A stretch of DNA of 64,000 nucleotides from Skermanella pratensis (GTDB lineage: Bacteria; Pseudomonadota; Alphaproteobacteria; Azospirillales; Azospirillaceae), in the NCBI RefSeq assembly GCF_008843145.1, contig NZ_CP030265.1, positions 3,588,501 through 3,652,500 of the forward strand. The letters run 5' to 3'. A program made the translations under genes and the position numbers. The notes beneath the pieces were generated by a model that saw only the letters and a program-made list of their open reading frames with translations, ran no database searches and was not told the DNA's origin. Shown piece by piece: positions 4,134-7,470 of the stretch. How positions within the stretch are numbered: the first letter of the stretch is position 1; each line of letters opens with the position of its first letter.

Positions 4134-5219
4134 ATGCTCGTGAACGGAAAAAAGGTTCGCCTCGCGATCGTCGGCGTCGGAAATTGTGCTTCATCGCTTG
4201 TGCAGGGCCTGGAATACTACAAGAACGCTGCCGAAGACGATCAGGTGCCCGGCCTGATGCATGTCACGCTGGGCGGCTACCATATCCGCGACATAGAGGT
4301 GGTGGCCGCCTTCGACGTGTCCGACGCCAAGGTCGGACACGACTTGGCCGACGCGATCCACGCCCAGCCGAACAACACCGTCCGCTTCGCCGAGGTTCCC
4401 AGATCCGGCGTTACGGTCGAGCGCGGGCCGACCCTGGACGGCCTCGGCAAGTACCTGGGGCAGGTGGTCACGGAGTCGGAGCGCCCGGTCGCCGACGTCG
4501 CGGAGGTGCTGCGCCGCAGCGGCGCCGAGATCCTGGTTTCCTACCTGCCGGTCGGATCGGAACAGGCGACGGAGTTCTATGCCGAGCAGGCGCTGGATGC
4601 CGGTTGCGCGCTGGTCAACTGCATACCGTCCTTCATCGCGTCGCGCGACGCGTGGCGCCGCCGATTCGAGGAGAAGCGCCTGCCGATCATCGGCGACGAC
4701 ATCAAGTCCCAGGTCGGCGCCACCATCGTCCACCGCGTGCTGACCAACCTGTTCCGCGAGCGCGGGGTCCGCCTGGACCGGACCTACCAGCTCAACTTCG
4801 GCGGCAACGCCGATTTCGAGAACATGCTGGAGCGCGAGCGGCTGGAATCGAAGAAGATCTCCAAGACGAACGCGGTGACCAGCCAGCTCGACGTGCCCCT
4901 GTCGAACGAAAACGCCCATGTCGGTCCGAGCGACTACGTGCCGTGGCTGGCCGACCGCAAATGGTGCTACATCCGGATGGAAGGCACGACCTTCGGCAAT
5001 GTCCCGCTGAATTGCGAGCTGAAGCTTGAAGTCTGGGACTCCCCCAACTCGGCCGGTGTGGTGATCGATGCCGTGCGTTGCGCCAAGCTGGCGCTGGACC
5101 GCGGCATCGGCGGGGCGCTGATAGGCCCGAGCAGCTACTTCATGAAGACGCCGCCGCAGCAGTTCACCGATGCCGAAGCCCGCATGCGGACCCTGCGCTT
5201 CATCGATGGCGAAGCCTGA
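4134..5219 (+). CDS. ino1: Inositol-3-phosphate synthase
   Basis: 361-residue NAD-dependent enzyme converting glucose 6-phosphate to 1D-myo-inositol 3-phosphate. The N-terminal Rossmann motif is VGVGNCASS (13-21); motifs shared with the actinobacterial Ino1 type follow: [25 protein letters not shown] and GPSDYVPWL. Length matches that type (about 360) rather than the longer eukaryotic enzyme. The best Shine-Dalgarno (4127-4132) is only one base from the ATG at 4134 but seven bases from an in-frame GTG at 4140, which may be the true start. It heads a four-gene operon with overlaps or gaps of a few bases, suggesting inositol phosphate is the precursor for the downstream enzymes. Such synthases are uncommon in proteobacteria. 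Confidence 0.92.
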
Positions 5220-5225
5220 CGGCAC

Positions 5226-5831
5226 GTGAGCCAGGACGTTTCGACAATCCACCTCGTACGGCACGGCGAGCATGACCTTTCCCCGGGGTTGCTCGCCGGC
5301 CGCACGCCCGGCGTTCCGCTGTCGGGGCGCGGGATCGAACAGGCGCGGCGCACGGCGGAGCGGCTGGCCCAGGCCGGCGGCATCGCCGCGGTCTATTCCA
5401 GCCCGCTGGAACGCACCTCCCGGACGGCCGGCATCATCGCCGACCGCCTGGGACTTCCCGCCGAGATTTCCGTTGCTTTGATAGAGATCGACTTCGGCGA
5501 CTGGACCGGCCGCCCGTTCGCCGAACTGAACACGCGGGAGGACTGGCGCCGCTGGAATCATTTCCGAAGCGGAACGCGCCCGCCCGGCGGCGAGACCATG
5601 GCGGAGGTGCAGGCGCGGGTCCTGGGCTTCATCGAAAAGCTGGTCGCCCGCGGCCCGCGGAGTTCCGCCGTGCTGGTCAGCCACTGCGACGTGATCCGGG
5701 CCGTCCTGGCCCATTGTCTCGGCATGCCGCTGGACCTTCTCCTGCGGCTGGAGGTGGCGACAGCCTCCGTCAGCACCGTCGAGATCGGCCCTTGGGGGCC
5801 CCGCATCCTGCGGATCAACGAGGAACCATGA
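5226..5831 (+). CDS. Histidine phosphatase family protein
   Basis: 201-residue phosphatase of the phosphoglycerate-mutase-like branch. The catalytic signature LVRHGEHD places Arg12 and the phospho-accepting His13; Arg63 (SSPLERT), Glu87 region (EIDFGDWTG) and His153 (VSHCDVIRAV) complete the family's phosphate pocket. It starts with GTG, six bases after the inositol-phosphate synthase stop, and its stop overlaps the next start (ATGA). Given the neighbour, it may dephosphorylate inositol phosphate or a phospho-sugar intermediate; this is inference, since the family is broad. Confidence 0.85.
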   Translation: MSQDVSTIHLVRHGEHDLSPGLLAGRTPGVPLSGRGIEQARRTAERLAQAGGIAAVYSSPLERTSRTAGIIADRLGLPAEISVALIEIDFGDWTGRPFAELNTREDWRRWNHFRSGTRPPGGETMAEVQARVLGFIEKLVARGPRSSAVLVSHCDVIRAVLAHCLGMPLDLLLRLEVATASVSTVEIGPWGPRILRINEEP

Positions 5832-6586
5832 TGAGCGAGCAGGACGAAATCCGGCGCCGGATCGATGATCTGGGCCAGTGGTTTCATAATATCAAGTTGA
5901 AGGGCGTGCGGACGGCGCCCGACCATTTCCTGGGCGACTATCCCAATGTCAAATGGCAGCGCTTCGCCCATGCGGTGCCGGAAGACCTGCGCGGCATGAC
6001 CGTGCTGGATATTGGCTGCAACGGCGGCTTCTACTCGATCGAGATGAAGCGCCGGGGGGCCGACCGGGTGGTCGCCATCGACAGTGAGCCGATGTATCTG
6101 GGTCAAGCCCGTTTCGCAGCCGAAATGAGCGGCGCCGAGATCGAGTTCCGCGAGATGTCGGTCTATGACCTGGGCCGGCTCGGCGAACGTTTCGACCTCG
6201 TGATCTTCATGGGCGTGCTTTACCACCTGCGCCATCCCCTGCTTGCGCTCGACCTGATCCACGAGCATGCGGCGCGCGACCTGCTGCTGTTCCAGTCGAT
6301 GATGCGCGGCAGCCAGGAAGTCGAGCCGCTGGAAGAGAATTATCCCATCACCGAGACCGGCATCTTCGCCAAGCCCGGTTACCCGAAGATGCATTTCGTC
6401 GAGCGGCGCTATTCCAACGACGACAGCAACTGGTGGATCCCGAACCGGGCCTGCGTCGAGGCCATGCTCCGCGACAGCGGATTCGAGATCGAGCAGCGGG
6501 CGGAGGAGGAGGTCTATCTCTGCCGCCGCACCGAACGCCGGACGCCCGGGGTGGCCGCCGTTTATCCAGCGAGGGGACAGCAATGA
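5828..6586 (+). CDS. SAM-dependent methyltransferase, CmoB-like (TIGR04290-type)
   Basis: 252-residue class I methyltransferase. The SAM loop is VLDIGCNGGFYS (59-70), with the acidic residue after strand 2 in VVAIDSEP. The N-terminal pattern DLGQWFHNIKL and the post-core FDLVIFMGVLYHLRHP motif match the CmoB-related group that includes small-molecule methyltransferases outside tRNA modification. The start overlaps the phosphatase stop by four bases (ATGA) and its own stop overlaps the hydrolase start the same way, so translation is coupled. The substrate is unknown; operon logic suggests an inositol- or sugar-derived product. Confidence 0.8.
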   Translation: MMSEQDEIRRRIDDLGQWFHNIKLKGVRTAPDHFLGDYPNVKWQRFAHAVPEDLRGMTVLDIGCNGGFYSIEMKRRGADRVVAIDSEPMYLGQARFAAEMSGAEIEFREMSVYDLGRLGERFDLVIFMGVLYHLRHPLLALDLIHEHAARDLLLFQSMMRGSQEVEPLEENYPITETGIFAKPGYPKMHFVERRYSNDDSNWWIPNRACVEAMLRDSGFEIEQRAEEEVYLCRRTERRTPGVAAVYPARGQQ

Positions 6587-7470
6587 TCGAAGCGGCGATG
6601 ATCTGGAACGAGCCCAACAACAAGTCCCACTGGGACCCCGAGCTTGATCCGGACTGGATTGCGTTCGGCCGGATGGCGTCGCTGGCGGGCCAGGCGATCA
6701 AGGCGGAAGCCCCCGGCCTGCTGCGCGTTTTGGGCGGCATCTCGCCGATCGACCCGGTGTTCATCTCCAAGCTCCGGTCGCGCGGAGTGCTCGATGATGT
6801 GGACGTGGTGGCGGTCCACGGCTTTCCGCTGGACTGGAACCTGTGGCCGATCCACGAATGGCCCGAACGGCTGAAGGAGATCCAGGCGGTCACCGACCTG
6901 CCGGTCTGGGTCAGCGAGGTCGGCGTCTCGACCTTCGGCGCGGAGGAGGTCCAGGAGTTCGGGCTTCAGCGCACGGCCGACCTGCTGATCGGCCGGGTGC
7001 CGCGCATCCACTGGTACAGCCTGTACGACCTGCCCCGCTCGTGGGAAGCGACGACACGCCATCGCGAGGCGGAAGGATCGTCGTATTACCGGCACTTCTA
7101 CATGGGCCTGCTGCGCGAGGACGGCTCGCCGAAGCTGGCGATGAGCCACTTCAACCGCTACACGCCCGACATGGGCATCTGCCAATGGTTCCACTACGAG
7201 GATCACCGGCTGGACGATGCCGTGCGCTGGCTGCGCGACCTGGGCGTGCGGCACCTGCGCACGGGCCTGAGCTGGGCCGACAGCTTCCGCCCGAACGCCC
7301 TGGACTGGTTCGACCGCCAGATGAAGGCGCTGGAGGAGTTCGACGTGACGGTGACCTTCTGCTTCACGCCGGAGCACCGCGGGCTGGCTCCCCACCACAC
7401 CAGCCCGCCCCAGGTGCCGGAGGAGTTCGCGGAGTTCTGCGCCACGATGGTCCGGCGCTACGCGGCGTGA
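6583..7470 (+). CDS. Glycoside hydrolase-like TIM barrel (GH39/clan A type), apparently circularly permuted
   Basis: 295 residues. Two clan-A type acids are visible: Glu10 in WNEPNN (acid/base position, end of strand 4) and Glu112 in VWVSEVG (nucleophile position, strand 7). The unusual point is the order. The protein begins at strand 4 (MIWNEP, 6-11), runs through strands 5-8 (VLGGIS, VDVVAVHGFP, VWVSEVG, IHWYSLYD), and only then shows segments that look like strands 1-3 (GICQWFHYED about 198-207, HLRTGLSW 224-231, VTVTFCFTP 255-263), ending at RRYAA, which normally leads into the NEP strand. The ATG overlaps the methyltransferase stop, so no missing N-terminus is hidden upstream. No signal peptide: cytoplasmic. 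Confidence 0.75.
   Translation: MIEAAMIWNEPNNKSHWDPELDPDWIAFGRMASLAGQAIKAEAPGLLRVLGGISPIDPVFISKLRSRGVLDDVDVVAVHGFPLDWNLWPIHEWPERLKEIQAVTDLPVWVSEVGVSTFGAEEVQEFGLQRTADLLIGRVPRIHWYSLYDLPRSWEATTRHREAEGSSYYRHFYMGLLREDGSPKLAMSHFNRYTPDMGICQWFHYEDHRLDDAVRWLRDLGVRHLRTGLSWADSFRPNALDWFDRQMKALEEFDVTVTFCFTPEHRGLAPHHTSPPQVPEEFAEFCATMVRRYAA

Follow-up and report, generated by a model that had tools for sequence, protein, structure and literature searches.

The 64,000-nucleotide stretch of the Skermanella pratensis genome analysed here (the window) encodes, at 6583..7470 on the plus strand, a clan GH-A-like glycoside hydrolase of 295 residues that appears to be circularly permuted: its chain would start at barrel strand 4, with the old termini joined between strands 8 and 1. 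This is supported by sequence rotation tests, by the conservation of the start codon, and by an AlphaFold2 model. We consider it highly probable that the protein is both a circularly permuted TIM barrel of the clan GH-A type and a retaining beta-glycosidase that would act in the cytoplasm, on an intermediate of a conserved oligosaccharide pathway.

The protein begins with MIEAAMIWNEPNN, which includes Glu10, carries an internal WVSEVG with Glu112, and ends in MVRRYAA. The motifs singled out by the first-pass annotation (WNEPNN with Glu10, SEVG with Glu112, and a terminal RRYAA) are thus all present as described. The codons of the two glutamates lie on the plus strand at 6610..6612 (Glu10, in the NEP motif, the putative acid/base) and 6916..6918 (Glu112, in the SEVG motif, the putative nucleophile), the roles being assigned by invariance and by alignment with PslG of Pseudomonas aeruginosa (GH39, PDB 4zn2 and 5bx9), the best solved relative by sequence. 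They align to positions 139 and 250 of the PslG chain, 111 apart, as are Glu165 and Glu276, the acid/base and the nucleophile of PslG according to PMC11912335. At least 595 contig stretches matched the search pattern, of which at least 578 encode a relative, and we kept the best 80 of these (76–91% identity). Four viral contigs also matched the pattern, and none encodes a relative. The alignment A3 comprises the window protein and 73 of the 80 kept homologues. Glu10 and Glu112 are invariant in its 74 rows, as in the 51-row alignment A2 of permuted homologues, and the motifs around them, WNEPNNKSHW and HGFP-DWN, are invariant in all 74 rows of A3. The gene is under purifying selection, with a whole-gene dN/dS of 0.04–0.09 in all four pairs computed and a low pN in both halves.

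The 5' end of the reading frame overlaps the stop codon of the upstream methyltransferase gene as ATGA (4 bases), and a start codon is aligned with Met1 in 80/80 homologues (70 ATG and 10 GTG) among the best 80 of at least 578. The frame 5' of the start is often open in these homologues, inside the overlapping upstream gene. It is closed within 0–4 codons upstream of the start in four loci (L037, L053, L057, and L077), which leaves no space for a first half in these. The conserved starts and these closed frames rule out an upstream missing half, in agreement with what the first-pass annotation had argued from the overlap. In one genome (G636), a match 5' of the gene had suggested a remnant of the former N-terminal half. 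It was also rejected, since it ran through a stop codon and had been extended by chance into the upstream gene, whose frame overlaps.

Comparisons with canonical-order relatives give the order of the two parts of the chain. A phmmer search of the PDB sequences matched PslG in two swapped blocks (whole-sequence E 1.6e-3), residues 201–294 on chain positions 26–129 and residues 3–188 on 132–323, the first of these matches being weak by itself (i-Evalue 38). Once rotated, the protein gives a single colinear match (residues 6–285 on chain 26–320, E 1.7e-8). We built an HMM from 12 canonical-order relatives, nine fused to an epimerase and three PslG-like. It aligns the native protein as residues 2–190 on model positions 116–302 (111.6 bits) and residues 192–294 on positions 9–113 (59.4 bits), with the block order swapped, and the protein rotated at residue 195 as one domain (model 14–301, 188.1 bits). 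The rotated alignment that had been proposed as a check is therefore positive with both PslG and the HMM. Scoring all 295 rotations gave a best single-domain score of 188.6 bits at offsets 188–189, with a plateau at 184–197. Profiles of eight fused relatives alone and of the three PslG-like relatives alone rise from 100.5 to 159.5 bits and from 37.2 to 80.3 bits, respectively, upon rotation, and with all three profiles the top scores fall at offsets 188–196.

These alignments divide the protein into two blocks on the plus strand. Block B (residues 1–190, 6583..7152) holds strands 4–8 and both glutamates and is equivalent to the last two thirds of the canonical-order hydrolase domain, while block A (residues 198–295, 7174..7467) holds strands 1–3, the first of which begins at residue 197, and is N-terminal in canonical-order relatives. 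The point where the old C-terminus meets the old N-terminus is placed at residues about 184–197 (7132..7173, plus strand) by the rotation-score plateau and by the predicted structure, in which a helix at 185–193 is followed by a strand at 197–200. In the reciprocal test, an HMM of the permuted family aligned to 12/12 canonical proteins with the order swapped. In all 12, the two blocks adjoin within a single open frame with their order reversed, the block A match to the PslG-like proteins being weak (0.8–15.7 bits; 0.8 in L093 and 6.2 in L096).

The AlphaFold2 model computed on A3 (pLDDT 84.4, pTM 0.86) has eight strands, at residues 2–9 (NEP, strand 4), 47–50, 75–79, 108–113 (SEVG, strand 7), 142–144, 197–200, 224–230, and 254–261, of which the last three correspond to barrel strands 1–3. 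Residues 11–14, 82–84, and 164–166 have a pLDDT below 50. The model thus predicts a complete (beta/alpha)8 barrel whose strands follow one another along the chain as 4-5-6-7-8-1-2-3. Glu10 lies just past the strand at 2–9 and Glu112 within that at 108–113, which rotation makes strands 4 and 7. Of the features that define clan GH-A, the predicted barrel and the catalytic glutamates at the ends of barrel strands 4 and 7, with the NEP motif, would be present; the canonical order of strands 1–8 along the chain is replaced by 4–8 followed by 1–3. By barrel topology, the new termini would fall in the helix 3–strand 4 connection, and the old ones would be linked between helix 8 and strand 1. Both sites would then be on the barrel face opposite the active site, leaving Glu10 and Glu112 in place at the two strand ends. 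The circular permutation proposed by the first-pass annotation is upheld by the swapped two-block matches, their colinearity after rotation, and the eight-strand model, in which the strands do not run 1–8 along the sequence. Its junction at residues 180–197 was nearly right, and the rotation-score plateau narrows it to about 184–197.

No Pfam or NCBIfam family scores the window protein above its cut-off, and NCBIfam gives no match. PF11790 (Glyco_hydro_cc) reaches 13.7 bits (E 0.047), or 15.9 bits after rotation, below the gathering cut-off of 21; a more distant permuted homologue (L090) scores 22.3 bits with this family. No GH39 family is found among the Pfam matches of the window protein, and with the A3 profile GH39-type beta-xylosidases have E-values of 0.66–0.67 (1.6e-3 for PslG with the native protein and 1.7e-8 with the rotated one). 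The annotated records that we consulted for the gene call it a beta-xylosidase, a glycosyl hydrolase, or a hypothetical protein. The lack of a family model covering the gene is explained by linear profiles scoring a permuted protein in two halves. It might also be read as a sign of two unrelated half domains, or of a truncated or frameshifted gene with its first half lost or upstream, a reading left with practically no probability by the aligned starts, the closed frames, the purifying selection on both halves, the eight-strand model, and the contiguity of the swapped blocks in 12/12 canonical-order relatives (with a weak first block in L093 and L096).

TIM barrels are pseudo-symmetric, and an ordinary barrel could give a swapped match if its similar beta/alpha units were aligned out of register. 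Foldseek does find poor sequential alignments of the model with many barrels that are unrelated to it: matches in the PDB are generic TIM barrels (query TM 0.24–0.49), and PslG is absent from the 50 best matches listed, the aligner being sequential and unable to judge a permutant. A register shift would nevertheless have to account for the identity of the window protein to the nine fused relatives (29–35% in block B and 27–32% in block A), for the WNEPNN and TE-G motifs being in register with theirs, and for the agreement of the three profiles on the best rotation offsets. We therefore regard it as very improbable, and favour the circular permutation.

The permuted gene follows three others on the plus strand. 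They encode an inositol-3-phosphate synthase-like protein (INO1; 4134..5219; TIGR03450, 542.7 bits, below the cut-off of 638; PF01658), a histidine phosphatase (5226..5831; TIGR03848 best, 173 bits, below the cut-off of 203.85; PF00300), and a methyltransferase of the TIGR04290 family (5831..6586; 384.1 bits, cut-off 300), with homologues in 71, 74, and 72 of the 80 loci, respectively. Neighbours were counted with tblastn at E 1e-8, at any position within the locus (at most 16.9 kb), for the best 80 of at least 578 relatives. A nucleotidyltransferase is found in 39 of these loci, a Zn-dehydrogenase in 36, and a Gfo/Idh protein in 36; the epimerase and glycosyltransferase counts in this survey include distant relatives. 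Counted separately at 45% identity or more, the second epimerase is present in 50 of the 80. A second hydrolase of either order was found in none of the 80 loci at E 0.01. Annotated clusters with the permuted gene occur in Roseomonas mucosa, Sinorhizobium (S.) meliloti pSymB, and Paracoccus yeei, all three with an annotated or matched UDP-glucuronic acid decarboxylase. The dehydrogenase and the Gfo/Idh protein of P. yeei best match scyllo-inosose 3-dehydrogenase and inositol 2-dehydrogenase, far below the cut-offs. Our literature search found no paper joining inositol-3-phosphate synthase, UDP-glucuronic acid decarboxylase, S. meliloti, and two further terms, and the full-text search found none on TIGR04290 or TIGR04295. 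The latter, a B12-binding radical SAM family, is matched above its cut-off by a protein encoded next to the epimerases in a cluster of this kind (L066:1686-3047, minus strand). The INO1-like protein at 4134–5219, below the cut-off of the mycothiol INO1 model, is perhaps a separate, cluster-tied branch of the inositol-3-phosphate synthases. Elsewhere in the window, positions 990–2585 encode a protein with a peptidoglycan-binding domain (PF01471), a DUF4384, and a CsgG match too weak to reach the cut-off.

The nearest relatives by sequence (27–35% identical in the two blocks) are canonical-order domains fused to an epimerase, represented by Rhizobium (R.) etli IE4771_RS31645 and by loci L091, L099–L104, L117, L119, L120, L138, and L139. 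The epimerase shares an open frame with the hydrolase domain in 21/21 fused copies checked; L113 and the three PslG-like relatives have no epimerase in the same frame. Clusters of the fused form have epimerases and glycosyltransferases in common with those of the permuted form and, where read, the UDP-glucuronate decarboxylase, the Zn-dehydrogenase, and the Gfo/Idh protein. The fused-form stretches of R. etli and R. rhizoryzae lack the permuted gene, and at E 1e-15 contain no TIGR04290 methyltransferase, phosphatase, or INO1. Since the permuted-form loci carry genes absent from these two closely read linear-only clusters, the substrates may differ. We read 48 loci with the linear HMM, 25 of them permuted and 23 linear (nine are in the HMM, L082 and L105 are one locus, L095 and L142 match the same place, and L111 is the window gene). 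A tree built from 23 permuted rows (rotated), 17 fused rows, and 5 outgroup rows places the permuted rows in one group (99/96) and the fused rows in another (99/99). The outgroups separate with lower support (94/64), and the program flagged long branches and midpoint rooting. The simplest reading of these sequences is that a canonical-order ancestor was permuted once, because PslG and the other outgroups are canonical.

We surveyed the two forms with searches using the canonical domain (E 1e-8) in genome sets that overlap at least in the window genome (G000). In the class of the window, 12 of 289 genomes have matches (6 linear only, 4 permuted only, and 2 with both). In its order, matches occur in 39 of 82 (2 linear only, 5 with both, and 32 permuted only), where 13 of the permuted-only genomes were read directly and 19 assigned from the match pattern, as were the permuted copies of G638, G639, and G640. 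In the class of G190, 5 of 274 genomes have matches (2 linear only, 2 with both, and 1 PslG-like). The fused copy lacks the acid/base glutamate in 7/7 readable genomes with both forms, which belong to two lineages. In the five from the genus of the window it is replaced by Ala or Thr, the nucleophile being lost in four and kept in G637, and in G663 and G801 it is replaced by Asp (WLDP and WIDP) with the nucleophile kept. The fused copy of G484, which is cut by a contig end, is counted for the nucleophile, which it keeps, but not for the acid/base. Both glutamates are kept in 11/11 linear-only genomes (G265 and ten from the surveys). The fused paralogue of the window genome (L145:11835-13781; G000:C1 about 4041834–4043780) has lost both (EIAAAPG and TGTG) and lies, with its glycosyltransferases, ~446 kb from the permuted gene. 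In G801, the fused linear hydrolase (WIDP) and the permuted one are ~23 kb apart on one contig (L146/L147; G801:C3:124423-125307 and 147890-148435).

This pattern would fit a takeover of the role of the fused domain by the permuted enzyme, and is suggestive only, because the seven genomes represent two lineages. Against a takeover count the replacement by Asp in 2/7, the nucleophile kept in G637, G663, and G801, and the exception of G553, a genome counted as permuted only that also has a distant, unfused canonical-order relative (L113, 26% identical to the linear query) in which both glutamates are kept. We thus put forward tentatively, at somewhat less than even chances, that the permutant displaced its canonical cousin in one pathway at least twice, the fused domain being absent or without its acid/base glutamate, and that the permutation accompanied the release of the domain from the epimerase to new partners (methyltransferase, phosphatase, and inositol-phosphate synthase).

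Computation supports the fold, the strand order, and the catalytic pair; we infer the activity, the substrate, and the location. With Glu10 as acid/base and Glu112 as nucleophile, the protein would be a soluble retaining beta-glycosidase inside the cell. It may trim, edit, or transglycosylate an intermediate of a conserved oligosaccharide pathway, whose members would include the inositol-phosphate synthase, the UDP-glucuronate decarboxylase, two epimerases, several glycosyltransferases, the methyltransferase, and the inositol-dehydrogenase-like oxidoreductases. The oligosaccharide substrate would be built with inositol and UDP-sugars, perhaps UDP-xylose, and the permuted enzyme would be the functional counterpart of the canonical-order domain fused elsewhere to the second epimerase of the pathway. 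PslG has the canonical order in a chain of 416 residues, with which the window protein is colinear only once rotated. It is a glycosidase of an exopolysaccharide system, and according to PMC11912335 it is periplasmic with a signal peptide, unlike the presumably cytoplasmic window protein. The loss of catalytic glutamates from the fused domains of genomes with both forms means that non-catalytic versions of the fold exist in the pathway, and the window protein might likewise be an inactive scaffold or a sugar-binding pathway protein. We find this unlikely, given that neither glutamate varies across the 74 rows of A3, and nor do the motifs WNEPNNKSHW and HGFP-DWN around them. Somewhat less unlikely, with perhaps a modest chance, is a transglycosidase that would transfer sugars to an inositol or oligosaccharide acceptor in biosynthesis instead of hydrolysing them. 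The location of the gene in a biosynthetic cluster argues for it, as does the N-terminus, which leaves no room for a signal peptide because it is barrel strand 4; retaining glycosidases of clan GH-A are, on general knowledge, mostly hydrolases.

A permuted beta-glycosidase of the clan GH-A type would join a few natural cases in related settings. The GH70 glucansucrases and MalS (GH13_19) are also naturally permuted glycoside hydrolases, but belong to clan GH-H and act on alpha-glucans. Transaldolase and the class I aldolases are naturally occurring TIM barrels whose beta/alpha units are shifted relative to one another (PMC2213659); they are not glycosidases, and their shift is of two units rather than the three of the window protein. 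The deacetylase domain of PgaB (CE4) is, like the window protein, a circularly permuted enzyme, and also belongs to an exopolysaccharide system (PMC13366581); unlike the window hydrolase, it is a carbohydrate esterase with an (alpha/beta)7 barrel. A literature search whose coverage omits most subscription papers found no natural circular permutation in clan GH-A or GH39. Natural permutation of TIM-barrel glycosidases is thus known for clan GH-H (GH70 and MalS), and a case in clan GH-A would be new as far as this search goes. Clusters of one kind have retained both orders, sometimes in one genome and with the catalytic acid of the fused copy lost, which offers a natural experiment on how a permutant may originate, spread, and replace its parent.
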